Origin: Thermogemmatispora onikobensis
Lineage (GTDB): Bacteria > Chloroflexota > Ktedonobacteria > Ktedonobacterales > Ktedonobacteraceae
Direction: 5' to 3'
Length of the DNA stretch: 64,000 nucleotides
NCBI RefSeq assembly: GCF_001748285.1
Contig: NZ_BDGT01000026.1
Location: 1-64,000, forward strand
Position 1 is the first letter of the stretch. Every line of letters starts with the position of its first letter. Below, piece after piece: positions 1,746 to 19,682 of this stretch. The position numbers were made by a program, and so were the translations under genes. The notes beneath the pieces are model-generated. The model was not told the DNA's origin. It made no database searches and saw nothing but the letters and a program-made list of their open reading frames with translations.

Positions 1746-4645
1746 ATTACGCCGTCGGTTCTCTGGTCAAGGTGCGAGGGCGTGAGTGGGTGGTATTGCC
1801 GGAGTCGAGCGCCGATCTGCTGGTCTTGCGTCCCCTCGGCGGGACCGATGAGGAGGTCACAGGGGTCTACCTGCCGCTGGAGCCGGTTGAGCCGGCGCAG
1901 TTTGCGCTGCCTGATCCGCGTCAGTGGGGTAACCACCCCTCGTGTGCCTTGCTCCGTGATGCCGTGCGCTTCGGCTTCCGTGCCAGTACGGGGCCTTTCC
2001 GCTCGTTTGCCCATCTGGCGTTTGAACCGCGGCCCTATCAGCTCGTACCGCTATTGATGGCCTTGCGCCTCGATCCGGTACGCTTGCTGATCGCTGACGA
2101 CGTGGGGATTGGCAAGACTATCGAGGCGGGTTTAATCGCGCGCGAGCTGCTGGATCGACGCGAAGTCAGGCGCCTGGCGGTGCTCTGTCCGCCGCATCTG
2201 GCCGAGCAGTGGCAGGCTGAGCTGCGCGAGAAGTTTCACATTGAGGCGGAGCTTGTGCTCTCCAGTACGGTGGCTCAGCTAGAGCGCAGGCTGCCTGAGC
2301 GGGACCTCTCGCTCTTCGAGTACTATCCCTTCGTCATTGTGTCGCTGGACTTTATCAAGGCGGACCGGAGGCGCGACGAGTTTTTGCGGACCTGCCCCGA
2401 GCTGGTGATTGTCGATGAGGCCCATACCTGTGCTTTCCCTGGCCACGAGCGGAGCGGGCGCCATCAGCGCTATCAGCTGGTCGCCGGGCTGGCGGCTGAC
2501 CCGCGCCGTCACCTGATCCTGGTCACGGCTACGCCCCATAGCGGCAAAGAGGAGGCTTTTCGCTCGCTGTTGGGCTTCCTGAAGGAGGAGTTCAAGGAGC
2601 TGCCGCAGGACTTGAGCGGGCGGGAGAACGAGCGTCACCGCATCCGTCTGGCGGCGCATTTTGTGCAGCGACGGCGCGCCGATATCCGCTCCTATTTGGA
2701 GCGTGAGACGCCGTTTCCAGAGCGTGATGATCGTCTGGAATCTTATAAGCTTTCCGATAGTTATCGCCGATTGATGCAGAAAGCCCTCAGCTATGCCAGC
2801 GAGGTGGTGCGCGATCCCACTGGCGGGCAGACGCGGCGTCGGGTGCGCTGGTGGTCGGCGCTGGCCCTGCTGCGCTCGCTGGCTTCGAGTCCGGCGGCGG
2901 CAGCGGCCACGCTGCGGAGCCGCGCCCAGGTGGCTGGAGCCGAGAGCGTAGAGGAGGCCGATCAGATTGGACGCCAGACGGTGTTTGATCTGCTGGACAG
3001 CGATGCGACCGAGGGCCTCGATCTGGTCCCGGGCAGCGACTTCGAAGAGGGAGACGAGGAAGGGGCGGACATCAGCGAAGAGCAGCGGGTTCGACGCCGT
3101 CTGCTGGCGATGGCGCGCGAGGCCGAGGCTATTACCTCTGAGCAGGATATGAAGCTGCAAAAGGCGATTGAGCTGATCAAGGGGTTGGTGCAGGGAGGCT
3201 ATCAGCCGATCGTCTTCTGTCGCTTCATCCCGACTGCCGAGTATGTAGCGAAGGCGCTGCGGAAGCGTTTGCCGGAAGAGATTGAGGTCTCGGCCATTAC
3301 GGGTCTCTTGCCGCCGGCGGAGCGCGAGAACCGGGTCCTGCAGCTGGCTCGGCACGAGCGCCGGGTCCTGGTCTGCACCGATTGTCTGAGCGAGGGTATC
3401 AATCTCCAGGAATATTTCAATGCTGTGCTCCATTATGACCTGTCCTGGAATCCGACGCGCCACGAGCAGCGAGAAGGGCGTGTCGATCGCTTTGGGCAGG
3501 CCAGCCCACTGGTGAAAGTCATAACGCTCTTTGGGGAAGATAATCAGATCGATGGGGTGGTGCTGCGGGTCTTGCTTGAGAAGCATCGGGAGATTCGCTC
3601 GAAGCTGGGAATTTCGGTGCCGGTGCCGCTGGATACCGAGCAGGTGATCGAGGCGATCTTTGAGGGCTTGCTCTTGCATGAGAGCCTGACCGGAGCGCAT
3701 GCGGGGCAGCTGCTGCTGCCGGGCTTTGAGGACCTGCTGAAGGGGGAGCAGAGGAATCTCTACCGCGAGTGGGAGGCGGCCTCTGATCGAGAGCGCCGCT
3801 CGCGCACGCTCTTTGCGCAGCATAGTATCAAAGTGGAGGAGGTCGCTCAGGAGCTGCGCGAGGTGCAGGCGGCCATCGGGTCGAGCGAGGATGTGGAGCG
3901 CTTTACGACCGAGGTGCTGCAAGCCTATAAGGCCTCTCTGAAACAGCTTCGCAGCGAGCCAGACGTCTGGGAGGTCGATCTGCGGGAGACGCCTGCACCT
4001 TTGCGTGATGCTGTCAATCTGCCGCGCTATGCTGGTCCCAACGGCCAGCATCTGCGGGTGAGCTTCAGACGCCTGGGCCTGCCGCGCACGCTCTATCTGA
4101 GTCGTACGCATCCATTCGTTGAGGGGCTGGCGACCTATGTGCTGGATACGGCCCTTGATCCGGTCGATGATGTGAATAATCCTCGCGTTGCTCGACGCTG
4201 TGGGGTTTTTCGCACCAGCCATGTCGAGAAGCGCACGACACTGCTGCTGGTGCGTCTGCGCTTTCATCTGCGGACGGCGACGCGCGGCGAGGAGGAGGCG
4301 CTGTTAGCGGAGGAGTGTCAGCTTTATGCCTTCCGTGGGGCACCGGCGCAGGCCGACTGGCTTGAAGATGCTGAGGAGATTGAGGCGCTGGCCCAGGCGC
4401 CTGCCGAGGCCAATCTGGCGCCGGAGCAGATTACGGATTTTCTGCAGCGAGTCATCGATGGGTATCCACAGCATCTATTGCCGTACCTGGAGGAACAGGC
4501 CCGCAGGCGAGCTGAAGCCTTGCGCGAGTCGCATCGGCGCGTGCGTCAGGTGGCGTCGCTGAGCCTGCGGCAGCTGGCGGTCGAGCCGCTGCTGCCGCCG
4601 GATGTGCTGGGTATCTATGTCTATCTTCCTTTGCTGGCCCGTTGA
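1742..4645 (+). CDS. drmD: SNF2/RapA-type helicase, DISARM DrmD-like
   Basis: This is a 967-residue superfamily 2 ATPase. Visible motifs are Walker A DDVGIGKTIEAG (residues about 117-128), DEAH box VDEAHTC (about 224), motif III VTATPHSG, and in the C-terminal helicase domain motif V TDCLSEGINLQ and motif VI QREGRVDRFGQ (about 575-586). The long C-terminal extension is charged and has no motif I recognise. RapA/SNF2 proteins translocate on duplex DNA, and in class 1 DISARM the DrmD protein is of this type. I chose the ATG at 1742 because GGAGGG sits just upstream and the start overlaps the preceding stop; a longer frame from 1706 would lie inside that gene. DrmD is assigned from the neighbours as well as the motifs. 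Outside DISARM this would be called a generic SNF2 helicase. Confidence 0.85.
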   Translation: MNYAVGSLVKVRGREWVVLPESSADLLVLRPLGGTDEEVTGVYLPLEPVEPAQFALPDPRQWGNHPSCALLRDAVRFGFRASTGPFRSFAHLAFEPRPYQLVPLLMALRLDPVRLLIADDVGIGKTIEAGLIARELLDRREVRRLAVLCPPHLAEQWQAELREKFHIEAELVLSSTVAQLERRLPERDLSLFEYYPFVIVSLDFIKADRRRDEFLRTCPELVIVDEAHTCAFPGHERSGRHQRYQLVAGLAADPRRHLILVTATPHSGKEEAFRSLLGFLKEEFKELPQDLSGRENERHRIRLAAHFVQRRRADIRSYLERETPFPERDDRLESYKLSDSYRRLMQKALSYASEVVRDPTGGQTRRRVRWWSALALLRSLASSPAAAAATLRSRAQVAGAESVEEADQIGRQTVFDLLDSDATEGLDLVPGSDFEEGDEEGADISEEQRVRRRLLAMAREAEAITSEQDMKLQKAIELIKGLVQGGYQPIVFCRFIPTAEYVAKALRKRLPEEIEVSAITGLLPPAERENRVLQLARHERRVLVCTDCLSEGINLQEYFNAVLHYDLSWNPTRHEQREGRVDRFGQASPLVKVITLFGEDNQIDGVVLRVLLEKHREIRSKLGISVPVPLDTEQVIEAIFEGLLLHESLTGAHAGQLLLPGFEDLLKGEQRNLYREWEAASDRERRSRTLFAQHSIKVEEVAQELREVQAAIGSSEDVERFTTEVLQAYKASLKQLRSEPDVWEVDLRETPAPLRDAVNLPRYAGPNGQHLRVSFRRLGLPRTLYLSRTHPFVEGLATYVLDTALDPVDDVNNPRVARRCGVFRTSHVEKRTTLLLVRLRFHLRTATRGEEEALLAEECQLYAFRGAPAQADWLEDAEEIEALAQAPAEANLAPEQITDFLQRVIDGYPQHLLPYLEEQARRRAEALRESHRRVRQVASLSLRQLAVEPLLPPDVLGIYVYLPLLAR

Positions 4646-4741
4646 GGTAGGAGGCCCGGGCGAGAAAAAAAGAAGACGAACGAGCAAGTTCTTGCTCTGA
4701 CAGGCGACCATCGATTCTCTCAAGGAAAGGCGGAGGCATCT

Positions 4742-7700
4742 ATGCAGCAACGGCAGGAGATCACTTTCTCGACGATCGAGTCTGAGGGGGCTTTGCTGCC
4801 GCCGGATCTTCTGGCGCGCATCGATCAGGGGGATAAGGCGCTGGGTGGGCTGAGTTCTGCTGAGTATCATTGTCCAGGCGAGCAGTTGAACGAGGTGATC
4901 AGCGATGCCTGGGCGCGCGTCCGCCGGCGCTGGCTGCGCTTTCAGGAGGCGCTGGTGCGCTATCCGCAGATGGATGAGACGCAGCTGACGCATGAGCATT
5001 GGCTCTTGCCGCTTTTCCATGAGTTGGGCTATGGGCGGTTGGTGAAGGCACCTCCGCAGGTGATTGGGGAGAAGAGCTATCCGATCGCTTATTTCTGGGG
5101 GCAGGAGCCTGTACAGGTGCCCGTGCCTATTCATCTGGTCGGCTGGCGTACTGATCTTGATCAGACCCAGCGTCTCGCCAGCGGTGGCCGCAGCAGTCCT
5201 TTTAGCCTGGTGCAGGAGTGGCTCAATCGTTCGTCTGGCCATTTGTGGGGCATTGTCTCGAATGGGCTGCGCTTGCGGCTGCTGCGTCGCAACGTCAGCC
5301 TGACGCGCCAGGCCTATCTGGAGTTCGATCTGGAGGCCATGCTGCGCGGAGAGGTCTACGCCGATTTTGTGCTCTTCTGGCTGCTCTGCCATCAGTCACG
5401 CTTTGAATGTGAAGACAAGAATCCCGCTGAGTGCTGGCTGGAGCGCTGGTCACGGCAGGCGCACGAGGAGGGGGTTCGGGCGCTGGAGCATTTGCGCCAG
5501 GGGGTGACCACAGCTATCGAGGAATTGGGGCGTGGCTTTCTGGCGCATCCGGCCAATCATGCTTTGCGTGATCGCTTGCGCTCCGGTGAGCTGAGTGCGG
5601 ATGATTATTATCAGCAGTTGCTGCGTCTGGTCTATCGTTTGATTGTGCTCTTTGTGGCGGAGGATCGCGATGTGCTGCTGCGGCCCGATGCTGATAAGGA
5701 GGCGCGGAGGCGCTATGTGAACTATTATTCGACGGCGCGGCTGCGTCGTCTGGCGCGCGCGCGGCTGGGGACGCGCCATAGCGATCTCTATCGGGCGCTG
5801 CGTCTGGTGATGGAGCGGCTGGGGAGCGAGCAGGGCTGTCCAGAGCTGGGGCTGCCGGCGCTCAATGGCTTTTTGTTCTCGCGTGAGGCCCTGCCCGATC
5901 TGGCTGACTGCGAGCTGACGAATTATGCGCTGCTGGTGGCGGTGCGGGCCTTGGCGACGGTCCAGGATGAGCAGAAGGTCCTGCGTGTCGTCAACTACAG
6001 AGACCTGGGGTCCGAGGAGCTGGGCAGCGTCTATGAGTCGCTGTTGGAGATGCATCCTTCCATCAATGTGGAGCAGACGAACTTTACGTTGGAGGTGGTC
6101 GCGGGCAGTAAGCGCAAGACGACGGGGACCTACTATACGCCGACCAGCCTGATCGAGTGCCTGCTTGATTCGGCGCTGGAGCCGGTGCTGGAGCGGGCCT
6201 GTGCGCAGCCTGATCCTGAGCAGGCTATTCTGAGTCTGAAGGTCTGCGATCCGGCCTGCGGGAGCGGCCATTTTCTGATTGCTGCAGCCCATCGCATAGC
6301 GCGCCGGCTGGCGGCGGTGCGCACGGGCAGCGAAGAGCCGGGACTGGAGGCCCGGCGGCGAGCCTTGCGCGATGTGGTGGGGCGCTGCCTCTATGGGGTC
6401 GATGTGAATCCGATGGCGGTGGAGTTGTGCAAGGTGAATCTCTGGCTGGAGGCGCTGGAGCCGGGCAAGCCTTTTTCTTTTCTGGATGCGCATATTCAGT
6501 GCGGCAATAGCCTGATCGGGGCGACGCCGGCCCTGCTGCGCGAGGGCATTCCCGATAGCGCTTTTGAGAAGGTTGAGGGCGATGACTCCGCGCTGTGTGG
6601 GGAGTACAAGAAGCTCAATCGGGCCCAGCGGGCGGGCCAGCTCAGTCTGTTTACGCTGGATGCGCAGCTCTGGCAGGACCAGGGCCGGATTGTGGAGAGT
6701 CTGACGCACATGGAGGCGATTGGTGATGATGATGTTGAGCAGTTGCATCGTAAGCAGGAGCGCTATCGTCAGTTGCTGAGATCGCAGGAGTATCAGCGGG
6801 CGCGCTGGCTGGCCGATGCCTGGTGCGCGGCCTTTGTCTGGCGCAAGCGGCGGACGGCTGAGCTGCCGTATCCGATTACGGAGGAGGTCCGGCGCAAGTT
6901 TGAGGAGGCGCCCGAGCAGGTGCCAGGCTGGATGAAGGCCGAGATTGCGCGCCTGCGCGAGCTGTACGGTTTCTTTCACTGGCACCTGGCTTTTCCAGGG
7001 GTCTTCCGTCTGCCGGAGCCGGGCGAGGAGCCGGAGAACCCCGAGACTGGCTGGTCGGGCGGCTTCGATGTGGTGCTGTCTAATCCGCCCTGGGAGCGCA
7101 TCAAGCTGCAAGAGAAGGAGTGGTTTGCCTCGCGTCGGCCTGACATTGCCAATGCGCCTAATGCGGCGCAGCGGCGGAAGATGATCGCGGCTTTGCAGGA
7201 CGAGGACCCTGCCTTGTACGCTGCTTTTGAGGAGGAGCTGCAGCGGGCAGCCTACGAGAGCCATTTCGTGCGCAACAGCGGGCGCTTTCCTCTCTGCGGA
7301 CGGGGCGATATCAATACCTATTCGATCTTTACTGAGACGATGCGCCTGCTGCTCGCCCCGCGCGGGCGCCTGGGCTGCATTGTGCCCTCCGGGATTGCGA
7401 CGGACGATACGACGAAAGCGTTCTTCCAGGATATCATGAGTGCGCGCTCGCTGCTCAGTCTCCATGATTTTGAGAATGCGGCTGGTATTTTCCCTGGAGT
7501 GCATCGGAGCTATAAATTCTGCCTGCTGACGCTGACCGGTTCCGCGGAGCCGGTGTCGCAGGGGGCGACCTTCGCCTTTTTCCTGCGCAAGGTGGAGGAG
7601 CTGCAGGAGCCGGAGCGCTGCTTTACTCTTTCCGCCGAAGATGTGGCTCTGATCAATCCCAATACGCGCACCTGCCCCGTCTTTCGCTCGCGCCGCGATC

Positions 7701-8767
7701 TGCAGTTGACGAAGGCCATCTATGAGCGTGTGCCGGTGCTCGTCAGGGAAGGCTCTGCTGAGGGGAATCCGTGGGGGGTGAAGTTTACTACGATGTTTCA
7801 TATGGCTAACGACTCGCATCTCTTCCGCACGCGCGAGCAGTTGGAGCGCGAGGGCTGGCGGCTGGAGGGAAACATCTTTCGCAAGGGAGAGGAGACCTAT
7901 CTGCCGCTGTATGAGGGAAAGATGATCACTCATTTCGATCATCGCTTTGCCAGCTATGCCGGCGAGCAGGCTGCACGCCAGGATAAGCCGCTGGAGTTGA
8001 GCGAGGAGCAGCATCACGATCCGTTTGCGCTGCCTTTGCCAAGGTATTGGGTTCATCAGACAGATTTTGCGAGCAAAGTAAAGACCAGCAGAACAGCATT
8101 GTTAGCATTTAGAGATGTTGCTAGATCTACGGATATGCGGACAGCTATATTTTCTATGATTCCTTTTGTACCATGTGGGCATAAATTGCCTATTTTCATT
8201 GAACCTGTAGACATTCAGTCTCTGGTTTATCTGGCTACTTGCTGTTCCTCAATGCTATTCGACTATGTTACGCGCCAGAAATTGGGAGGAACTAGCCTCG
8301 GTTTCTTCATCCTCAAACAGCTTCCTGTCCTGCCGCCGGCGCGCTACCAGCAGCCGTGTCCCTGGGAGAGCGACCGCACGCTCGGCGACTGGATCAGGCC
8401 GCGTGCCCTCGAACTCACCTACACCGCCTGGGACCTGGCCGCCTTCGCCCGCGACTGCGGCTACGACGGGCCGCCCTTCCGCTGGGACGAAGAGCGGCGC
8501 TTCCTCCTGCGCTGCGAGCTGGACGCCGCCTACTTCCACCTCTACGGCATCGCCCGCGACGACGTCGACTACATCATGGAAACCTTCCCCATCGTCAGGA
8601 GCGAAGACCTCAAGCGCTACGACGACTATCGCACCAAGCGGGTCATCCTGGAGATCTACGACGAACTGCAGCGTGCCAGCGCAACGGGCCAGCCCTATCG
8701 CACGCGCCTCACACCGCCGCCCGCCGACCCCGCCGTCGCCCATCCGCCGCGGCCCCACCAGTCCTAG
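4742..8767 (+). CDS. drmMI: Large N6-adenine DNA methylase, Eco57I/PglX type, DISARM DrmMI-like
   Basis: This 1341-residue protein has motif I CDPACGSGHFL (residues about 502-512), which binds S-adenosylmethionine, and the catalytic motif NPPWERI (about 781), typical of gamma-class N6-adenine methylases. The C-terminal third (RDVARST, then LGFFILKQLPVLPP) is the conserved tail of Eco57I-like enzymes. No nuclease motif is evident, so its role is probably self-marking of host DNA in the DISARM-like operon. A 96-bp gap separates it from drmD and contains a short palindrome (4682-4697). The start follows GGCGGAGG. Base use is oddly mosaic: bases to about 8040 favour G/T-ending codons, 8040-8290 are clearly A/T-rich, and 8330-8767 use mostly C-ending codons. 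This suggests recombination within the gene. BREX PglX is the main alternative, but no pglZ or brxC is present. Confidence 0.85.
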   Translation: MQQRQEITFSTIESEGALLPPDLLARIDQGDKALGGLSSAEYHCPGEQLNEVISDAWARVRRRWLRFQEALVRYPQMDETQLTHEHWLLPLFHELGYGRLVKAPPQVIGEKSYPIAYFWGQEPVQVPVPIHLVGWRTDLDQTQRLASGGRSSPFSLVQEWLNRSSGHLWGIVSNGLRLRLLRRNVSLTRQAYLEFDLEAMLRGEVYADFVLFWLLCHQSRFECEDKNPAECWLERWSRQAHEEGVRALEHLRQGVTTAIEELGRGFLAHPANHALRDRLRSGELSADDYYQQLLRLVYRLIVLFVAEDRDVLLRPDADKEARRRYVNYYSTARLRRLARARLGTRHSDLYRALRLVMERLGSEQGCPELGLPALNGFLFSREALPDLADCELTNYALLVAVRALATVQDEQKVLRVVNYRDLGSEELGSVYESLLEMHPSINVEQTNFTLEVVAGSKRKTTGTYYTPTSLIECLLDSALEPVLERACAQPDPEQAILSLKVCDPACGSGHFLIAAAHRIARRLAAVRTGSEEPGLEARRRALRDVVGRCLYGVDVNPMAVELCKVNLWLEALEPGKPFSFLDAHIQCGNSLIGATPALLREGIPDSAFEKVEGDDSALCGEYKKLNRAQRAGQLSLFTLDAQLWQDQGRIVESLTHMEAIGDDDVEQLHRKQERYRQLLRSQEYQRARWLADAWCAAFVWRKRRTAELPYPITEEVRRKFEEAPEQVPGWMKAEIARLRELYGFFHWHLAFPGVFRLPEPGEEPENPETGWSGGFDVVLSNPPWERIKLQEKEWFASRRPDIANAPNAAQRRKMIAALQDEDPALYAAFEEELQRAAYESHFVRNSGRFPLCGRGDINTYSIFTETMRLLLAPRGRLGCIVPSGIATDDTTKAFFQDIMSARSLLSLHDFENAAGIFPGVHRSYKFCLLTLTGSAEPVSQGATFAFFLRKVEELQEPERCFTLSAEDVALINPNTRTCPVFRSRRDLQLTKAIYERVPVLVREGSAEGNPWGVKFTTMFHMANDSHLFRTREQLEREGWRLEGNIFRKGEETYLPLYEGKMITHFDHRFASYAGEQAARQDKPLELSEEQHHDPFALPLPRYWVHQTDFASKVKTSRTALLAFRDVARSTDMRTAIFSMIPFVPCGHKLPIFIEPVDIQSLVYLATCCSSMLFDYVTRQKLGGTSLGFFILKQLPVLPPARYQQPCPWESDRTLGDWIRPRALELTYTAWDLAAFARDCGYDGPPFRWDEERRFLLRCELDAAYFHLYGIARDDVDYIMETFPIVRSEDLKRYDDYRTKRVILEIYDELQRASATGQPYRTRLTPPPADPAVAHPPRPHQS

Positions 8768-11049: not shown

Positions 11050-11130
11050 AAAGACAACCGTTTCTTGCTCATCCCGAGCGAGCACCCAGACTGGGCAGTT
11101 GCCTGGTATTCGTGCATATGAGGAGCAGCC

Positions 11131-12273
11131 ATGACGACGCACAAGCATGCGAGAGCGCACGCCCAGCGCACGCCCGGTGGTACCGAGCCATTTCCCGTTT
11201 CCCCGGCAACCGACGCAGACCTGGCCTCTGACGGTAGTCCCCTCCTCGAAGCCTACCGTCAAGAACTGCTCATCTACTGCTACCGCCTGCTCGGATCGCT
11301 CCATGACGCCGAAGACCAGGTTCAAGAGACGCTCCTGCGCGCCTGGCGCCACCTTCAGGGCCTCAAAGACCCAGCCTCCATGCGTCCCTGGCTCTACAAA
11401 ATCGCCACCAACGTCTGCCTTGACGCCCTCAAGAAACGTCCGACCCGCACTCTCCCACTGGCTGCCTTTCCCCCCGCTGATCCGGAGCACCCCATAGCAC
11501 CCCCACTTACCGAAGCAACCTGGCTGGAACCATTCCCCGATCACTGGCTCAGCGAAGCCACTGAAAACCCTGAAGCTCGCTACACGCGCACAGAAAGCAT
11601 CTCGCTCGCCTTCCTCACCGCTCTGCAATTACTGCCTCCTCGGCAGCGGGCTGTCTTGATCCTCGCCGACGTCCTGGACTGGCGCGCCAAAGAGATCGCC
11701 CACCTGCTCGACAGCTCCATCGGCTCCATCAACAGCCTCCTACACCGTGCGCGCCTCACCCTTGAGCAACGCAATCGTGGACAGGAACCTGAGACCGCCC
11801 GCCAGCAGCCAGCGGACGAAGAGACGCGCCGTCTGCTCGCGCGCTACATGTATGCCTGGGAGCATGACGACATAGAAGGACTCATTGCGCTGCTTAAAGA
11901 AGAAGCTACCCTCTCCATGCCCCCTTACGCCGCCTGGTATCAGGGGCTGGCCGCCATCCGGGCCATCCTGGCCACCTGCCCTTTCCAGTCTGGGAGGCCC
12001 CAGCAGTGGCGTCTCTTGCCAACCGCGGCCAACGGGCAGCCCGCCTTTGCGGTCTATCGTCACAATGCCGCCCGAGATGCCTACATGGCCTATGGCATCC
12101 AGATGGTCAGCCTGGAGAAAAGCGCCGCCACAGCCGCCAGAGTCATCACCAGCATCATCATGTTCCACGATGCCGCACTTGTCGCCCGCTTTGGGCTGCC
12201 GGAACAGCTCCCTATCTCTTCGGAGCGGTACCACCCGGCAGGCAGCGCATTCGTAGCGCCACCGCCAACGTAG
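11131..12273 (+). CDS. ECF-type RNA polymerase sigma factor with C-terminal SnoaL-like domain
   Basis: In this 380-residue protein, sigma region 2 is seen at residues about 35-105 (LLGSLHDAEDQVQETLLRAW and RPWLYKIATNVCLDAL). Region 4 is at about 165-215 (LPPRQRAVLILADVLDWRAKEI). From about residue 240 there is a second domain (LLARYMYAWEHDDIEGLIALL) of the SnoaL/NTF2-like type found fused to some ECF factors. In these families the extra domain is thought to control sigma activity in place of a separate anti-sigma factor, and none is adjacent here. The ATG is preceded by GAGGAG. The target promoters are unknown. Confidence 0.9.
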   Translation: MTTHKHARAHAQRTPGGTEPFPVSPATDADLASDGSPLLEAYRQELLIYCYRLLGSLHDAEDQVQETLLRAWRHLQGLKDPASMRPWLYKIATNVCLDALKKRPTRTLPLAAFPPADPEHPIAPPLTEATWLEPFPDHWLSEATENPEARYTRTESISLAFLTALQLLPPRQRAVLILADVLDWRAKEIAHLLDSSIGSINSLLHRARLTLEQRNRGQEPETARQQPADEETRRLLARYMYAWEHDDIEGLIALLKEEATLSMPPYAAWYQGLAAIRAILATCPFQSGRPQQWRLLPTAANGQPAFAVYRHNAARDAYMAYGIQMVSLEKSAATAARVITSIIMFHDAALVARFGLPEQLPISSERYHPAGSAFVAPPPT

Positions 12274-12330
12274 ACATTGGGCTACGCCGGCATCGTCGTC
12301 ACCGACCCCGTGGGAGCGTGCCCCACCTGA

Positions 12331-12726
12331 TACGGCATCGTTCACAATAATGTCACGCCGTTCATCTTCGCGGCCCTGGCCCTGGAAATCTTCACCCTCT
12401 TTGAGCAGCTCAACGCCGCTGGCAAAACCATCATCTGTCTCACCCATGATCGTGGCCTGGCCGCCCATGCCAGCCCAGGACCGGCCTGTCTGAGAAGGGA
12501 GCAAGACAGGCTGAGGTCAACCACCAGAAAAGCCATCCAGGATCTGCTTCGGCGCAGACTACGCACAGCCCTGACCATCCTGGAGATTGCCATTGGCGTC
12601 ATAGGATTCGCCGCCGTCATGCTGGCTGCAATCGCCTGGCTGCTGGCCCTGGTGCTGGGCCTCCCAGCGGGCTACAGTTTTCCCCTGCGCCTGAGAGAAG
12701 CTTTTGCTTGTCACTACACTTCATAA
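12331..12726 (+). pseudogene. Remnant of an ABC exporter: ATPase tail joined to permease start
   Basis: A single open frame lies between two stops and has no usable start. It reads first like the end of an ABC ATPase (EIFTLFEQLNAAGKTIICLTHD, the H-loop region with the switch histidine). About 40 residues later it reads like the N-terminus of a MacB/FtsX-type permease (RRRLRTALTILEIAIGV and a hydrophobic segment), ending at TAA 12724. The Walker A, signature and Walker B motifs and most of the permease are missing. The simplest reading is a decayed lolD/macB-like gene pair fused by deletion. It may be shorter or longer than the limits given. Confidence 0.55.
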
Positions 12727-12881
12727 TCAACTTGCTTATCATGCTGGCCATGCTGGCTCTTGATCCTGCTGCTAGCCAGCCTCGGCCCGGTCTGAAGCGC
12801 TGCCTGCCTCAGTGCAGTGCAGACACAAGGCACAATCGGCCAGCACCCCAGTAGGAGACCGCTCGCTGGCCGCAGGGCAAG

Positions 12882-14921
12882 CTAATCGACCATCCGTAGC
12901 TTGCAAGGGGTGGGATCGATGGCCACCAGGAAAGGCTGTATCATCCCATCCAGAGCAACAATCGCCTGACCTGGGGCCAGATTGGGTAGCCGCGTCCAGA
13001 GTCCCTCATCGATGCCGCCGATGCTCCGCTTCAGACGGCTGATCACGTTGGCATCGGTGATCTTATGGAGAACCACATTGTTAATGAGACCCAACACCTC
13101 GTCGGGCAGATGCTGCGGTAGCTGAGTCACAAAGACCAATCCCAGCCAGCGCTTACGCCCCCGCCGGGCCATGCGAGCCACCTGCTCGAACAGGGTTGGC
13201 ATCTGGCGCACACGCTCCGCCGACAGGAACTCGTGCGCTTCTTCGATGATCACCATGACAGGGACCAATCCCTTGCCCTCTTTGACGGCCTGCGTCTGAT
13301 CGGCTCCTGACGACGGTGTCGCCTGCCGCTCTGGCTGTCGCTCGAGCTGGGCATAGCGCTCATCCTGATGGCGATGCACTCCGCGTAGCAGCTCGGCGAT
13401 CACCAGATTATTGATCTGTGGCGAGTCGGTATCGCTGAGGTCAATAATCGCAACCTGTCCTTGGTGCAGCATCTGGTCATACCGCAGCGGCTGGGCCTTG
13501 CGATTATCGAAAATGCGCAGATTCAGCAAGCGCCTGAGCTTCCCCTGCAGGGCTCGCCAGCTCGAGGGCGCTCCTGGCAGTCCCTTGGCTGCAGACTTAA
13601 TCTTCTGAATGACGGTCTGGGAGGCTCCTTTCAAGTCTGGGCTACTGAACTCGATGTTTCCCTCGACCTTCTCGACGAGGGAAGTGCAGGCGCGGACCAC
13701 ATCATAGATGTGCTCCAGGCGCATGCCTCGATATCCCTCCTCTAGCTCATCCAGCTCCAACAGCCAGCTGGCATCTTCTCCAGCTCTCGGCGAGATTTTT
13801 AATTCATGCAAAATTTGCTTAGTAATATCGTAGGCACGTAGATAGCGCTCTTGCTGGGCCTCTGTCATCTCCAGCAGCTCGCACACAAGATACGGGGAGA
13901 GCTGCTCAAACAGGAGACAGAAGGGCTGGACGGTGGCCTGCTTCGGCTGCGGATTGGCGGTGCGGCGTCCTACCAGATGATAGATAGTGACCTGCCCCAC
14001 GCCAGCAGGCTGCTTTCGGCGCCGCTCCAGAGCGGCGAGCATCGTTGCATCGTCCGTCGGTTCGTCAATAGTGGTATATTCTCCTTCGGTATCGATGAGT
14101 ATCGTGGCGAAGCCCTGGCACTGGAGCTGACTCACCAGTCCGGAAACGGTCGTTGACTTGCCGCCGCCAGTTGTCCCGAGGATGCCGACATGGCGACACC
14201 AGAGCGACTTGCGCCTGGCGGGGACGCGCACGACCAGCTCCTCATGGCCAATGGCCAGGCCCAGCTCGATTTCTCCGTCCAATTTGAGCACACGGGCCAT
14301 TTCTTCGCTGGTGAGCACGTAGACGGGGCTCTTGGGCAATGGGCGGAAGCGCTGCGGAACCAGCTGGCCGCCTTTGCCTCCTAGCTCCTCGCCCAGGAGC
14401 TGGACCTGGACGCGCCCGTGATAGTCTGGCAGGAAAACAGTGCCGTAGACGGAAGTCGTGACCACGATTGGCGAGTCGCCGCGGATGCCATCCGGTTCGG
14501 CAAATGGCCCGCGGACGACGATCCCCAGGTAGGAGCGCCCGTCAGTGCTCTCGATGCGGACCGGTGCCTGCGCAGGCACTTTCCCGATATTGGCCTGCGG
14601 GAGGACAACAGTCACGGTATTATCTTCGCTGGCCGGGGTGTCGAACAGGGTTTGACCCACATAGCCAGGGCCGTAATCTCGCTCCTGCCATTCACCGCCG
14701 GCGTGCTCTGCATCCTCTGCGAGGCGCGCGAAGACCTCGCGAGGGAAGGGCTTGATAGTCTCTTCTCCTCCTCCTCTCCCGTCTTCCTTCTCCTCAATCC
14801 GCTTCGCGGCGCCCTCTGCTGGTGCGCCGTTGCGATGACGCTGCGTCTGCGCGGGTTTTGCCGGGGGCAGCTCCTCAAAGGGCCAGAGGGAATTGTTGGA
14901 ATCATCGTGCTGCTTCTTCAT
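12882..14921 (-). CDS. herA: HerA-type hexameric DNA translocase (DUF87 ATPase)
   Basis: In this 679-residue protein a charged N-terminal tail (1-60) and a beta-rich HAS-barrel-like region (about 100-240) precede the FtsK/HerA ATPase core. Walker A GTTGGGKST is at residues about 249-257, IDTEGEY follows, Walker B VMVIIEEAHEF at about 556-565, and a conserved QLPQHLPDEV segment (sensor) after it. HerA pumps DNA and works with the nuclease NurA in archaeal end resection. Bacterial HerA proteins paired with nucleases or other effectors act in phage defence. Here it is the last gene of a six-gene operon, 11 bases after a NurA-like gene, which supports a HerA-NurA complex. No strong ribosome binding site is seen, so it is probably translationally coupled. 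Confidence 0.85.
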   Translation of the reverse strand: MKKQHDDSNNSLWPFEELPPAKPAQTQRHRNGAPAEGAAKRIEEKEDGRGGGEETIKPFPREVFARLAEDAEHAGGEWQERDYGPGYVGQTLFDTPASEDNTVTVVLPQANIGKVPAQAPVRIESTDGRSYLGIVVRGPFAEPDGIRGDSPIVVTTSVYGTVFLPDYHGRVQVQLLGEELGGKGGQLVPQRFRPLPKSPVYVLTSEEMARVLKLDGEIELGLAIGHEELVVRVPARRKSLWCRHVGILGTTGGGKSTTVSGLVSQLQCQGFATILIDTEGEYTTIDEPTDDATMLAALERRRKQPAGVGQVTIYHLVGRRTANPQPKQATVQPFCLLFEQLSPYLVCELLEMTEAQQERYLRAYDITKQILHELKISPRAGEDASWLLELDELEEGYRGMRLEHIYDVVRACTSLVEKVEGNIEFSSPDLKGASQTVIQKIKSAAKGLPGAPSSWRALQGKLRRLLNLRIFDNRKAQPLRYDQMLHQGQVAIIDLSDTDSPQINNLVIAELLRGVHRHQDERYAQLERQPERQATPSSGADQTQAVKEGKGLVPVMVIIEEAHEFLSAERVRQMPTLFEQVARMARRGRKRWLGLVFVTQLPQHLPDEVLGLINNVVLHKITDANVISRLKRSIGGIDEGLWTRLPNLAPGQAIVALDGMIQPFLVAIDPTPCKLRMVD

Positions 14922-14932
14922 TGTGCGGCCTG

Positions 14933-16219
14933 CTACTTTCTGGCGCGTGTCCGGCGCTCACTCACAAAGCGGAATGGTTCACCTGCATGGACGTAGGCCG
15001 TGTGAATGGCATCTTCAAAGATGTCGTTGCCGAAGACCACGCGGCAGATGGCGTCTGCCAGATCGATGAGCAAGGGAAAGCCCCGGTGCTTGTGCAAGAC
15101 ACTATCTGCCAGAGCGATCAGCGCGGCCTCAAAGATATGGTCGATGTGACTATAGAAGATGTAAGGCTGGGCATAGGCCGAAGCGCGGTAGACACCCATC
15201 ACCACCTGCGAGCCGACTTCGTGGCTGAAGTGCTCTGCCTGCTGTTTGAATTGAGCGGGATAGTGTCCCCTGGTGGCGATCTCAAGCAGCTGGTCCTCGA
15301 TGGTCTCCAGAACGAGAAACTCCAGGGGCTCAAGGGCCTGGCCGATGGTCAGCCAATGGCGCCGCTGAGTGTCGCTCTGGACAAAGACCACCTTGCGATG
15401 ACCAAGGAGCAGCTCCTCCAGCATGGCCAGGCTGCGCGTGAACAACTCCATGCTGCCCGAGCCAGTAAGCAGCTCATAGGGGACGGGAGGGCCGTGGCCC
15501 AGGCGCCAGGGCGCCTGAGCCTTCCAGGTGAGCACCGCCCGTTCAGCATAGCTCATGATGCCGCGGCGGGCCAGCATGCTCAAGCGGCTCTGTTCCTCGA
15601 CCTCGATACTGCCGCGCTGGCTACGCTTTTCCAGCAGCGCCAGCAGATCCTCCAGTGGCTTACCGGTCGTCGCTCGCAGGTCGCGGCGAAAGAGACGCTG
15701 CGACCAGGACCCCTGGTCACCCTGATAGGAGACCAGGCAGACCCCTAACTGCGTGATCGTGATGGGCAGGCTATCGTAGCGCTGGCTCGTGCCATCACAG
15801 GCCTCGACCGCTCCGTTAAAGAGCAGGGCGCGGTGAGCGTAACGCAGGTCATCAAGCGAGACCCGATAGCACCCGGCGCCCCGCGCAGCGCCAGGGCGCC
15901 TGGCAAGGCGCGGAAAGACCTCGCGGCGAATTGGTTCGCGCTGAGCCCGCTCAAAGACCGCCGCCTCCCTGATTTCGGCCTCTAGTTTGCGATAGAGAGC
16001 CTCTAGATCACTACCTCCCTGCCACCTCTCAATGTCCAGCGTTTCCTCAAGCGACTCCCCATATGCCTCCTTATAGGTACGGGCATCCACCAGCGATGGC
16101 TCATCTTCTGGAGGCATCTCATCCACTCCTTCATTGAACAACCAATCCTGCAGCGTTTCTACTACATATTCCCTTCCTCCCGGAAAAGTGCGACAGATTC
16201 TGTAAATAGCCGGCGTCAA
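14933..16219 (-). CDS. nurA: NurA-like nuclease partner of HerA
   Basis: This 428-residue protein has the NurA-type start of the RNase H-like core (VEACDGTSQ at residues about 138-146, the DGS/DGT metal-binding aspartate) and the C-terminal segment GFPLLIDLADA that closes NurA domains. NurA is a Mn-dependent 5'-3' exonuclease and endonuclease activated by HerA. The start is TTG at 16219, overlapping the stop of the ImmA gene (TTGA), which implies tight translational coupling. The family match is by motif and by position next to HerA. Divergence is strong, so loss of activity cannot be excluded. The next in-frame ATG (16117) is an alternative start. Confidence 0.62.
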   Translation of the reverse strand: MTPAIYRICRTFPGGREYVVETLQDWLFNEGVDEMPPEDEPSLVDARTYKEAYGESLEETLDIERWQGGSDLEALYRKLEAEIREAAVFERAQREPIRREVFPRLARRPGAARGAGCYRVSLDDLRYAHRALLFNGAVEACDGTSQRYDSLPITITQLGVCLVSYQGDQGSWSQRLFRRDLRATTGKPLEDLLALLEKRSQRGSIEVEEQSRLSMLARRGIMSYAERAVLTWKAQAPWRLGHGPPVPYELLTGSGSMELFTRSLAMLEELLLGHRKVVFVQSDTQRRHWLTIGQALEPLEFLVLETIEDQLLEIATRGHYPAQFKQQAEHFSHEVGSQVVMGVYRASAYAQPYIFYSHIDHIFEAALIALADSVLHKHRGFPLLIDLADAICRVVFGNDIFEDAIHTAYVHAGEPFRFVSERRTRARK

Positions 16220-16977
16220 TTATAAAAGCCGAGCAGATGAGCGATAGAGCGCTGGGTTGTCGCCGGAAAGAGCAGCGTGGCGTAGCCCTGAGCAATGGCC
16301 GGCGGCAGGCCATAGGTGACAACCAGCAGGCGCCGGGCGATGTGCCTCCTCTCAGCCGAGTCTGCGCCTTTCTGGAGCTGCTGGTCGACCTGCGAGAGCA
16401 GCCGCCTGGCGGGTGCGAGCAGTTCGAGGGCCAGGCGATCGGCCTCTCGCTCAGCGCGCAGCAGGGCACTGACCCGCTCCATATCTGCGGTTGTCCGCGG
16501 TAACAGGTCCAGATAGAAGCCGAGCTTGCAGCTGGCCAGGATGGCATTAAGCCGCTCCTCGAAGGTAGGAGGGCGCTCGCCATCGAGCACAGGAAGAATC
16601 GAAGGTCCCAGGCGCCGGATAGCGCGTTGCCGGGGCCGGAGGTAGTCGTGCAGAAAATGAGCTAGCTCGTGGGCCAGGGTATAGCGCTGCTCTTCGGGCG
16701 GATCGCTGCGATCCACAAAGATCAATCCATGTCCTCGCACTGCGATGAGGCAACCGTGAAGCGGGCGTTCAGCACAGCTGGAGCAGTAAGCGATTCCCCG
16801 CTGCTGCAGCCAGCGCTCAACTCGCTCCACGCTCAAGCGCGTGAGCGAGAAGATCGCGACCGGATAGGCGCGTCCGGCGATCGGAGCCAGATCACAGGGA
16901 TAGGTTGGCGCACAGGCAACGGAGCGCCAGAAAGCGGCGGCCTCCTCCGTTACCCAGGCCGGCAGGGAAATCATCAT
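16216..16977 (-). CDS. ImmA/IrrE-family metallopeptidase
   Basis: This 253-residue protein carries the zinc-binding HELAH motif at residues about 103-107 and a downstream EREADRLALELL helix, which supplies the third ligand in the M78 peptidase family. ImmA (ICEBs1) cleaves the repressor ImmR, and IrrE (Deinococcus) cleaves DdrO after DNA damage, switching on mobile-element or repair genes. Its ATG overlaps the stop of a small upstream gene (ATGA, 16974-16977), and it overlaps the NurA-like gene downstream. In this operon the likely substrate is a regulator encoded beside it, the small protein or the sigma-like factor. That is inference. Confidence 0.85.
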   Translation of the reverse strand: MMISLPAWVTEEAAAFWRSVACAPTYPCDLAPIAGRAYPVAIFSLTRLSVERVERWLQQRGIAYCSSCAERPLHGCLIAVRGHGLIFVDRSDPPEEQRYTLAHELAHFLHDYLRPRQRAIRRLGPSILPVLDGERPPTFEERLNAILASCKLGFYLDLLPRTTADMERVSALLRAEREADRLALELLAPARRLLSQVDQQLQKGADSAERRHIARRLLVVTYGLPPAIAQGYATLLFPATTQRSIAHLLGFYN

Positions 16978-17351
16978 GGCCCTTGCTCCTCCTCGCGATC
17001 GCGCGCTGCCTGCAGCAGGCTATCTCTCTGAGAAGCGCGCGCCATGTGGGTCTGCAAAGCCGCCATCGCCTCGACCTGGCGAAGCAAGGCCAGCAGGCGC
17101 CCATCCTTCAGCTGAAAGTGTCGAGTCAGTTGCTCTACATCGTCCAGGAAAGTCGCTGAGGTCCCCACGGGCCGGCGACACAGGGCAAGACGCGGCAGAT
17201 CCTCTGGCGCACAGCCAAGGTCATGAGCCAGCCCTTGCTCATCAAGCTGATGCAGATCCTGATACTGGCGCAGGGCGCTGGCCAGGAAAAAGCTTCTCTG
17301 AGCCGCCCGCTGGGCCGCATAGACCAGCGCCGGTGAAGGGTTACTTCTCAT
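16974..17351 (-). CDS. Small helical protein, possible XRE-like partner of the ImmA-type peptidase
   Basis: This 125-residue protein is all-helical by composition. A central region (LDEQGLAHDLGCAPEDLPRLALCRRP) resembles a helix-turn-helix that skips to a second recognition helix, as in small XRE-like regulators. The C-terminal part is a charged helix (LLALLRQVEAMAALQTHMARASQ). ImmA/IrrE peptidases are commonly coupled to XRE repressors, which supports a regulator, but the DNA-binding motif is not textbook. The ATG at 17351 lies inside the end of the sigma-like gene (ends overlap by 11 bases), so translation is coupled; a TTG one codon earlier is an alternative. Confidence 0.6.
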   Translation of the reverse strand: MRSNPSPALVYAAQRAAQRSFFLASALRQYQDLHQLDEQGLAHDLGCAPEDLPRLALCRRPVGTSATFLDDVEQLTRHFQLKDGRLLALLRQVEAMAALQTHMARASQRDSLLQAARDREEEQGP

Positions 17352-17991
17352 CAAAGCGTACTCCGTGCCTCTTGAGTCGTAGACGCAAGCGATCCTTCAC
17401 TCGCTTGACTTGCTTGCGCTGCTCCTCAATGGACAAGTATGTCAGTCCCAGTTCCGCCGCGTAGGCACTTGTCCGCCTCTCCCCCTGGAGCATGAGGACG
17501 ACAATGCGCCATTCGATGGGTGTAAATGTCTCGCTGCGCAGGCGCTGAAGCAGCTCCTGCAGCGGTGGGGCACTCAGCGCAAGCCTTGCTTCCGCTTCCT
17601 GCCAGGGCCTCACCTCTTCTATGGAACTATTCCCTGCTGAGAGGGGAAGTGCGACAGAAGAAAGAGGAAGCTGGCGTTGCTGCTCGCGTTGGTAACGGCT
17701 GAGGGCGTTACGAAGATCGCCTTCGGCATTCATCATGAGGTAGTGCCACAGGCTGCCGCGCTCTGGCCGATAACGCTCCGGGTGTTCAAGGAACGTCAGC
17801 ACTGAGTCTGTAACGGCATCCTGAATCAACTGAGGATCTGGAACGGAGGCATAGCGCAGGCGCAGCTGAGCGGTTAATGGATCAAGAACCAGCTCCGCAA
17901 AGTCGTCCGGTGCAGTGGGATCTTGAGCGAGCAAACGCTGATAGACAGCCTCTAGTTCCTGGGTTGATGGGGGTGACACTGGCAGACCCAT
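17341..17991 (-). CDS. Divergent sigma-70-family RNA polymerase sigma factor
   Basis: In this 216-residue protein the segment DPQLIQDAVTDSVLTFLEHPERY followed by RGSLWHYLMMNAEGDLRNAL (residues about 55-100) matches region 2 of ECF-like factors. The C-terminal part (TPIEWRIVVLMLQGERRTSAYAAELGL) matches the region 4 helix-turn-helix. I chose ATG 17991 because AAAGGAGG stands five bases upstream; an ORF start at 18036 lacks this. It is the second gene of the HerA-NurA operon, 115 bases after the methylase, and overlaps the small regulator gene. A dedicated sigma factor inside a defence-like operon is unusual. It may turn on the operon or a linked element after the peptidase acts. Confidence 0.75.
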   Translation of the reverse strand: MGLPVSPPSTQELEAVYQRLLAQDPTAPDDFAELVLDPLTAQLRLRYASVPDPQLIQDAVTDSVLTFLEHPERYRPERGSLWHYLMMNAEGDLRNALSRYQREQQRQLPLSSVALPLSAGNSSIEEVRPWQEAEARLALSAPPLQELLQRLRSETFTPIEWRIVVLMLQGERRTSAYAAELGLTYLSIEEQRKQVKRVKDRLRLRLKRHGVRFDEK

Positions 17992-18106
17992 CGGGGCCTC
18001 CTTTGGTGGGAACAACGCCGGACAAACGAAGCGCACCCGTTCGCCAGGGAGGGCGAAAGAGTGACTTCTGGCCTGTCCTCCTTCCTGCTGCTCTCGGCTA
18101 TCAGCC

Positions 18107-19291
18107 TCAGAGGGAGGAAAGGGTAACGATCGTTTCGGTATGCATGCGCCTCTTCAGCAATGCCTGGTGAGCGGTACGTGGTGGTGGCAGGTAGCGACGG
18201 TTGGGAGGCAGTTCCCGCTCTTCCCAGCGCTCTAGCCGGAACCCCTGCCGCTGCGCCAGCAGCCAGAACAAACGGGCGTTCTGCAGGAAGGCGCCTCGCA
18301 GGCAGGAATTGCCCAGCACCACGATGGCGCGTCCGCCCGGGCGCAGCACGCGCCGCATCTCTGTGAGCAACGCCGCCAGATCCAGCAAGTAGCGCAGCAG
18401 CATCCCCTGCTCGCGGCTGGGCAGCTGCAGGAGCGTCTCCTGGCAAGCGGGGATCTCCTGCAGGGCCGTCAGGTCTGCGCCTGGGAGCGGCCCACGCTCG
18501 GCCCCGATACTGTTCGCCCGGATGGCGCGCAGCTCCCGCAAGCGGTAGCCGAGCCAGACCAGGGCCAGACGGTGCCCGCGCAGATAGTCGATGGCATTGA
18601 GATAGGGCGGAGAGGTCAGCACGACGTCGACGCTGTGATCGGCCAGCGAGGCCAGGTGGCGGGCGTCCTCTAAAGCGATCTCCGCTGCGCCGGCCTGGGG
18701 TGGCTGCGCTTCCAATCGGCTGGCGATCAGTTCCACGGCGCGAAGGAAGCCGTCCCGAACGGAGAAGGGCGTGTTCAGGCGCGTGCGGTGCGGGCGGCTG
18801 TGGGAGACATCGCGAGCCAGGGAGGCGCCCAGATCTTTGGTGATAATGATGCGGCTCAGGGCCAGCCGGAGGGCATCGCCGAGGGGGCCGTCCTCGTCGC
18901 GCAGGGCGGCGCTGAGGAGGCGGAGTGCTCCTTGTTGCGGTTCGGCAAACCAGTAATGGACGAAAGCGGCGGTCTCGGGATCGTCGTCGATCCAGGGCAG
19001 CGGGACCGGCGTCGCAGCGCCGCTGAGGCGCGCCACCAGCTGGTGGGCCCGTTGACGCAGCTGATCTGTATCCAGGGGGGTGGTCCAGACCCGGGCCATC
19101 AGGACGGCCAACGGGTCGATGTCGCGGCCAATGGCGCGCAGGCCGTGGTTGAGGGCCGCTCTCAGGACGGTGCCCGACCCCATCATCGGGTCCAGGACGA
19201 TGCTGCCCGCCGGGAACTGGGCCAGCTCGCTCAGCGCGACCTCGGGGGCCATCCGCGCTGGAAAGGGGTGCACGGGCTTCAGGTCTGTCAT
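18107..19291 (-). CDS. DNA methyltransferase of the TSPPY (beta/N4-N6 amino) class
   Basis: This 394-residue enzyme begins with the substrate/AdoMet region HPFPARMAPE and LDPMMGSGTV (residues about 8-45, motif I). The catalytic motif TSPPYLNAIDYLRGHRLAL is at about 207-225. This motif order, and SPPY rather than NPPY, points to amino-methylases acting on adenine N6 or cytosine N4. No restriction enzyme is adjacent. It is the first gene of the operon leading to HerA, has a good AGGAAGAG ribosome binding site, and is preceded by a promoter at 19450-19458. It probably marks host DNA so that the downstream NurA-HerA machine spares it, but a recognition sequence cannot be read. Confidence 0.85.
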   Translation of the reverse strand: MTDLKPVHPFPARMAPEVALSELAQFPAGSIVLDPMMGSGTVLRAALNHGLRAIGRDIDPLAVLMARVWTTPLDTDQLRQRAHQLVARLSGAATPVPLPWIDDDPETAAFVHYWFAEPQQGALRLLSAALRDEDGPLGDALRLALSRIIITKDLGASLARDVSHSRPHRTRLNTPFSVRDGFLRAVELIASRLEAQPPQAGAAEIALEDARHLASLADHSVDVVLTSPPYLNAIDYLRGHRLALVWLGYRLRELRAIRANSIGAERGPLPGADLTALQEIPACQETLLQLPSREQGMLLRYLLDLAALLTEMRRVLRPGGRAIVVLGNSCLRGAFLQNARLFWLLAQRQGFRLERWEERELPPNRRYLPPPRTAHQALLKRRMHTETIVTLSSL

Positions 19292-19449
19292 CGCTCTTCC
19301 TGACTTTCCTTGCCGTAGGGGCGCTCAATGGTCTTCCGCCGGCTAGAGGCTGTGCCTGACTGCCGTTGTCCCTGCCTTGCCTTGCCATAGCGAAGAACGG
19401 GCGCGCGTCGCTGACGTATTGCAGTGAGATCTATCGATCGCTCAATTGT

Positions 19450-19458
19450 ATTATATCA
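19450..19458 (-). promoter_or_regulatory. Extended -10 promoter of the methylase-sigma-ImmA-NurA-HerA operon
   Basis: On the minus strand TG-A-TATAAT is a perfect extended -10 element. The sequence 17 bp further up (CTAACG) is a poor -35, as is common for extended -10 promoters. The expected transcript start near 19443 leaves an untranslated leader of about 150 bases before the methylase ATG. Confidence 0.6.
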
Positions 19459-19590
19459 CAGGATCTGCTGATCGTTAGGCTGGCTCATCTTCCTCACCTT
19501 GTGGCTGCTGAAAGAGTAGAACAGCATGGCTGCCCTGTCCCATCAGCTCTAGCCAATCTCTGCGACTACAGACTTTCTTATAGCGTGGAA

Positions 19591-19627
19591 GAACTGGCTG
19601 ACCGGCGACCAGCCGGTCAGCCAGTTC
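19591..19627. repeat. Perfect 15-bp inverted repeat between divergent promoters
   Basis: Bases 19591-19605 are exactly complementary to 19613-19627 with a 7-nt spacer. It lies between the minus-strand promoter at 19450 and the plus-strand gntR promoter at 19683, where no gene should end. No T-run follows on either strand. It may be an operator, an insulating hairpin or the relic of a terminator of a lost gene. Confidence 0.7.
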
Positions 19628-19682
19628 GCTGCTCACGCAGGCCACTTTTCCCTTGAGGTGATCATTGTTTTGGTGGCCCCCC

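Follow-up and report, generated by a model that had tools for sequence, protein, structure and literature searches.

The window analysed here is a stretch of 64,000 nucleotides of Thermogemmatispora onikobensis (contig NZ_BDGT01000026.1, positions 1 to 64,000 of the forward strand), the host genome being that of a Thermogemmatispora-type Ktedonobacterium. It contains a six-gene cluster which runs from a DNA methyltransferase gene (19291) to the gene of a HerA translocase (12882) and harbors between them the genes of a predicted extracytoplasmic function (ECF)-like sigma factor, a small predicted helix-turn-helix (HTH) protein, an ImmA/IrrE metallopeptidase and a NurA-like protein (shown in Table 1). 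The genes of the sigma factor, the small protein and the peptidase form the regulatory half of the cluster; all three are located on the minus strand and overlap consecutively head to tail. This overlap had been described in a first-pass annotation of the DNA, and its coordinates were borne out. Distant relatives have the three genes arranged likewise, overlapping or nearly so, with ATGA overlaps of the sigma gene and the small gene in, for example, L015, L016 and L018.

Table 1. Genes and predicted elements of the cluster (coordinates of the 64,000-nucleotide window)
Feature	Position	Strand	Remarks
Housekeeping-type extended -10 element, TGaTATAAT	19450..19458	-	upstream of methylase
DNA methyltransferase, SPPY type	18107..19291	-	394 aa; PF01555 1.3e-8; PADLOC MTase_II 1e-25
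Predicted ECF-like sigma factor	17341..17991	-	216 aa; ATG 17991, stop 17341; AAAGGAGG precedes ATG
Predicted sigma-dependent promoter 1	17628..17656	-	TGTCGCACTT-N13-GGAATA; within sigma gene, between the coding segments of regions 2 and 4; predicted transcription start ~17620
Small HTH (XRE-like) protein	16974..17351	-	125 aa; ATG 17351, stop 16974; 11-bp overlap with sigma gene
L-x-A-A-R-D motif of small protein (residues 113-118)	16998..17015	-	candidate cleavage region
ImmA/IrrE (M78) metallopeptidase	16216..16977	-	253 aa; ATG 16977, stop 16216; 4-bp ATGA overlap with small gene
HELAH zinc-binding motif of ImmA	16657..16671	-	
Predicted sigma-dependent promoter 2	16167..16195	-	TGTCGCACTT-N13-GGAATA; ImmA-NurA gap, upstream of NurA-HerA; predicted transcription start ~16159
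NurA-like protein	14933..16219	-	428 aa if start is TTG 16219; ATG 16117 (after GAAGGAG) is the likelier start
HerA ATPase/translocase	12882..14921	-	679 aa; PF01935 5.5e-19, PF05872 1.6e-9; PADLOC HerA 6e-27

The product of the sigma gene matches PF04542 with 24.9 bits against a cut-off of 24, and a sequence match for sigma region 4 is absent in Pfam. Its structure model (predicted local distance difference test, pLDDT, of 88.6) shows two helical domains joined by a linker that is disordered. The nearest folds in the PDB are those of ECF sigma factors with E. coli sigma-E at the top (probability 1.00, E-value only 0.012); this modest E-value and the low template modelling (TM) scores are put down to the flexibility of the linker. 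Judged by this model, the protein has the composition of an ECF-like (group IV) sigma factor, i.e. the domains of region 2 and region 4 with a linker, and neither region 1.1 nor region 3. A second sigma factor, unrelated to the first one and fused to a SnoaL-like domain (ECF41-like), is encoded on the plus strand next to the cluster (window 11131-12273).

The small protein was assigned to no family of Pfam, NCBIfam or PHROGs. Its model (pLDDT 94) is formed by five short helices and a long C-terminal helix; the Foldseek matches are weak and belong mostly to XRE/HTH regulators, and HTH matches are given by several members of the small-protein family. The alignment of 35 divergent sequences demonstrates that only C58, A115, A116 and R117 are invariant, the Ala-Ala-Arg (AAR) motif lying near the C-terminus and being followed by a variable acidic tail. 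DdrO is reported to be cut by PprI within an E-L-R-G loop close to its C-terminus, the arginine of the loop being essential with single-stranded DNA present (PMC10904395). Because of this analogy (an Arg-containing motif near the C-terminus) the AAR motif is a candidate for the region cleaved by ImmA, and the likeliest one in the protein. The small protein as a whole is a candidate for both an anti-sigma factor and the substrate of ImmA; its proteolysis by the latter is plausible in view of the invariant AAR motif and of the parallel pairs PprI-DdrO and CapP-CapH. The first-pass annotation had taken the small protein and the sigma factor for the only possible targets; this holds within the trio, but the small protein is a predicted HTH protein instead of a featureless helical one. 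The invariant C58 (35 of 35 sequences; codon 17178-17180, LALCRRP context) is located at the expected end of the XRE recognition helix, where a core, redox or metal contact is possible.

In ImmA the residues of the HExxH motif (H103, E104 and H107) as well as the downstream E176 are invariant among 33 sequences, and the protein matches PF06114 (3.2e-9) and the CapP profile of PADLOC (PDLC04141, 4e-11). HerA possesses the P-loop GTTGGGKS, its PF01935 and PF05872 matches representing the central and the C-terminal domains. The NurA-like protein has the motifs DGT and G-F-P-L-L-I-D-L-A-D, which resemble DGS and GYPYxIExAD of NurA (alignment A4).

Related loci were collected by a scan with the alignment of the NurA-like proteins, one genome per species; several of the genomes are metagenome bins, so that single labels may err. 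The scan resulted in 48 loci from 48 species of about 10 phyla, with members in Chloroflexota, Planctomycetota, Acidobacteriota, Bacteroidota, Deinococcota, Actinomycetota, Proteobacteria, Syntrophobacteraceae/Syntrophaceae and the candidate phyla KSB1 and Lindowbacteria. The head-to-tail trio is no chance arrangement, as it recurs, in the order sigma-small-ImmA-NurA-like, in 46 of the 48 loci, the other two being contig fragments, and HerA comes next wherever the contig extends further. The sigma gene was found in all loci that extend far enough, and ImmA is missing from none. Moreover, the pairwise divergences of the five core proteins are correlated (r 0.61-0.81). Since the gene order is kept and the core proteins diverge together, the regulatory trio should be regarded as an integral part of the system.

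The closest relatives of the cluster belong to T. aurantia and T. tikiterensis. In a complete genome of a congener (G003) both flanks are present at the same site, and ~460 bp stand in place of the window region 12220-19678. A complete cluster is also carried by a contig of a viral collection (L152:6017-12304), where it lies between a Type I restriction-modification (R-M) system and a putative serine recombinase gene, as judged by eye. Comparison of these sequences indicates that the cluster is mobile.

The ImmA-NurA gaps of different loci, when lined up, revealed a shared element, TGTCG[A/C]ACTT-N13/14-GGAATA. A regular-expression scan located a second copy on the sense strand within the sigma gene of most loci, where the gene encodes the linker that joins regions 2 and 4. 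When scored against a 16-position consensus with a threshold of at least 13, the element is present in 36 of the 46 regions between ImmA and NurA, in 34 of the 45 linkers of the sigma gene, and only in 3 of 940 shuffled windows used as a control. Loci outside the matrix (L052, L055, L059, L060 and L152) contain all eight expected sites; a ninth one, expected in the partial contig L062, was not found. The position 13 bases past the start of GGAATA is a purine (A/G) in 95% of the sites of one class and in 100% of those of the other. With this purine taken as +1, GGAATA spans -13 to -8, and TGTCGAACTT roughly -36 to -27. The GAACTT core at -35 is of the classical ECF type. The base in position 6 (A or C) matches between the two copies above expectation (p ~1e-4). 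In L072 and L096 the internal copy is lost and a copy is located just upstream of the sigma gene instead. The second copy of L078 and L083 is found between NurA and HerA. Two Chloroploca-type loci (L070:6733-6859 and L107:7787-7894) have two copies of the motif in tandem in the ImmA-NurA gap.

The internal copy falls in codons of the sigma gene. The valine at the start of the site is encoded by GTC in 34 of 34 genes, as compared to 26% GTC among 421 other valines. The residues behind this valine vary (VEL, VAL, VEH, VAH, VAQ, VED), and the DNA stays GTCGMA or GTCGAG. When synonymous codons were shuffled within each gene, the site (score threshold 15) was kept on average in 3.0 genes, compared with 31 of 37 for the real ones. 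In L089 and L080 a spacer of 14 puts GGAATA in another reading frame, and GGAATA is still kept. Taken together, these data point to selection that acts at the internal site on the level of DNA. A conserved protein motif VEL was considered as well and was ruled out by the codon choice and the synonymous shuffling, which place the constraint on the DNA.

The two promoter-like elements are very probably ECF-type promoters recognized by the cluster's own sigma factor, and the conservation described above lends strong support to the idea of a dedicated sigma that drives the operon to which it belongs. The first-pass annotation had likewise proposed a private sigma for the operon, acting at the element 19450-19458. 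The former part agrees with the ECF-like motif conserved at two fixed sites of the cluster, but the latter does not hold. The element itself does exist and is conserved in two congeners (L012 and L014); it is, however, a textbook extended -10 of the housekeeping type, for which the consensus scan gives no -35 match, and it differs from the motif common to the two sigma-type sites. It was therefore rejected as a sigma target, and action of the sigma factor there is extremely improbable.

Another explanation of the two motif copies is that they are operators of a CapH/DdrO-like repressor, namely the small HTH protein cut by ImmA, with the sigma factor as an ordinary co-activator or a minor player. 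The XRE-like HTH model and the HTH matches of several family members agree with it, and CapP-CapH and PprI-DdrO are known parallels. XRE repressors, however, usually bind palindromes and the motif is non-palindromic; the -35/-10 spacing, the ECF-typical GAACTT and the purine-only position at the expected start are features of a promoter, and the sigma gene accompanies every locus that extends far enough. This makes the explanation unlikely, and recognition by the sigma factor is preferred.

The predicted regulon appears to be local. The 5.56 Mb genome contains three matches to the core pattern GTCGMACTT-N10-16-GGAA, i.e. at the two cluster sites and once on contig 17 with a longer spacer; a near-identical copy of the contig 17 match is also present in a congener that has no cluster. 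The three further carriers in the genus show matches at the two cluster sites and nowhere else. Viral contigs gave 53 motif matches, which, the cluster-bearing contig excepted, are judged to be near chance given the size of the collection. Two related loci contain an additional copy. In L100 a third copy (11101-11129) precedes, at a distance of 140 bp, a multiubiquitin/ThiF (E1) module that follows HerA. In L095 of Zavarzinella a copy (11736-11764) is found ~45 bp ahead of a cas4-cas1 fusion gene. The sigma factor may thus be recruited by other defence genes, and CRISPR adaptation in L095 may be under its control.

Several loci have defence genes beside the cluster: besides the Type I R-M system in L152, these are Cas4-Cas1 in L095, a Thoeris-type TIR gene in L082 and multiubiquitin/E1 in L100. 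The cluster probably acts against invaders. An accessory DNA-repair operon, i.e. damage-induced end resection by HerA-NurA and not defence, is quite improbable. HerA-NurA is indeed known as an end-resection pair, and IrrE-type proteases govern repair genes of Deinococcus. But a recognized NurA of this genome is already encoded elsewhere, on contig 21, and a member of the housekeeping NurA family is also found in nearly all relatives; the cluster, moreover, is patchy, is absent from a sister genome, includes a methylase and adjoins defence genes in several loci. Some further genes of this kind were observed in the surroundings. A CRISPR array of 22 repeats (L206:20-1645, G015:C24) lies ~14 kb from the cluster of G015, a genome that also has Cas4, and a Cas4 gene stands directly behind HerA in two related genomes (L015:5517-6134 and L016:5495-6328). 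In the window itself, positions 246-8767 of the plus strand encode an MZB-domain protein with a DruE-like match, a DpdE-like SNF2 helicase (3.8e-261) and a DrmMI-like/Type IIG methylase; this set is mostly gone in T. tikiterensis (L014) and present in G003.

These observations are best explained by a model in which the cluster is mobile and restriction-like, is directed against invaders and contains a complete regulatory switch of its own; we consider this model moderately probable. The housekeeping promoter at 19450-19458 would provide a low level of the methylase and the sigma factor, and the small HTH protein would keep the latter inactive. DNA damage or invading DNA would activate ImmA/IrrE, which would then cut the small protein at Ala-Ala-Arg. 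Single-stranded DNA is a known trigger of ImmA/IrrE relatives. The freed sigma would read its two private promoters, the one within its own gene driving the small protein and ImmA and the one in the ImmA-NurA gap driving the NurA-like nuclease and the HerA translocase. Thus, the sigma factor would raise its inhibitor, the activating protease and the effectors, and, in the present genome, not itself. By analogy with known ImmA/IrrE systems, we infer that release of the sigma factor through cleavage of the small protein is rather likely; DNA damage or invasion as the trigger seems likely to a similar degree.

Some of the data are not in favor of this model. The association of the A/C variant with sigma residues is no stronger than that with control proteins, and since the latter associate equally, co-variation leaves the reader of the motif unproven. 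The internal site implies a leader of ~270 nt ahead of the small gene. The assignment of NurA comes from the motifs and from the linkage to HerA, as neither sequence nor profile comparisons reach significance; the NurA profile PF09376 matches none of nine NurA-like members, and the profile-profile comparison gives an E-value of 0.15. Finally, no relatives of the NurA-like protein were found in plasmid or phage collections, and none of the sigma factor in the plasmid collection.

The cluster could also be a timing device similar to C-protein systems, in which, after transfer to a new host, the methylase is made first and the nuclease later via the sigma factor, ImmA merely resetting the system with no response to damage. 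The arrangement fits this, as there is usually an upstream methylase gene with a promoter to itself, and a sigma promoter precedes the nuclease genes. Of the 30 loci with adequate flanks, however, 5 have no methylase; among the 25 that have it, 21 carry it upstream in the same orientation, and in 4 it is divergent, downstream or inverted. The methylase also co-diverges least with the other proteins (r 0.40-0.46), whereas ImmA is never absent. A mere timing device is therefore rather improbable, and the protease-controlled switch remains the favored model.

PADLOC 2.0.0 matched the core set of no named system and gave only generic HerA, MTase and CapP/RmrA matches, with none for the sigma factor, the small protein or the NurA-like protein; neither did the open-access literature, including surveys of HerA/FtsK and bacteriophage exclusion (BREX)-related systems, describe a system with this set of genes. 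Among the closest known arrangements is CapH-CapP of cyclic-oligonucleotide-based antiphage signalling systems (CBASS) and other immune operons. There, too, an HTH protein and an ImmA/IrrE-type peptidase are encoded with an immune-like operon, and ImmA of the cluster matches the CapP profile. CapP cleaves CapH and the immune operons become derepressed (PMC13373217); the reported damage-responsive controllers of immune operons, namely CapW/BrxR, CapH with CapP and CapK with CapS, act via repressors (PMC13373217). In contrast, the present cluster adds an ECF-like sigma factor with its own promoters, its small protein has no PADLOC match, and its output would be activation by the sigma factor rather than derepression alone. 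Both PprI(IrrE)-DdrO of Deinococcus and ImmA-ImmR of ICEBs1 share with it an M78 peptidase beside an XRE-like protein and a conserved Arg-containing motif near the C-terminus, but their targets repress ordinary promoters and no dedicated sigma is involved. ECF/anti-sigma pairs of the sigma-E/RseA type, in which proteolysis brings about the release, are similar in the two-domain sigma factor, the neighbouring candidate inhibitor, the protease and the GAACTT-type -35; in the cluster, by contrast, the candidate is a soluble HTH protein and the M78 protease is cytoplasmic, a predicted promoter lies within the sigma gene, the regulon is local, and the unit moves across phyla. As in the HerA-NurA pair and in HerA-based defence, a HerA-class translocase stands beside a NurA-like protein, which here escapes the NurA profile and is coupled to a methylase, a sigma factor and ImmA. 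In C-protein R-M systems, too, the genes of methylase and nuclease are governed by a transcription regulator that the system itself encodes; here this regulator is a sigma factor whose candidate partner would be controlled by a protease. A protease-controlled immune operon is already known; the sigma factor, its private promoters and the position of one of them inside the sigma gene are, as far as checked, new.

The cluster may represent a portable immune regulon, a view that is about as likely as not. In such a regulon, the linker of the sigma gene would hold a promoter for the same sigma factor, so that the inhibitor, the protease and the DNA-degrading effectors are turned on and the sigma factor itself is not, and the system would work with RNA polymerases of about 10 phyla including Bacteroidota. 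A promoter conserved within a coding sequence over many phyla is rare. If the model is true, a sigma factor would here be seen for the first time, as far as the open-access literature goes, to control bacterial defence, and this control logic would be new in comparison with the repressor-based ones. By bringing its own sigma factor and promoters, a defence cluster could keep its regulation after jumps across phyla.
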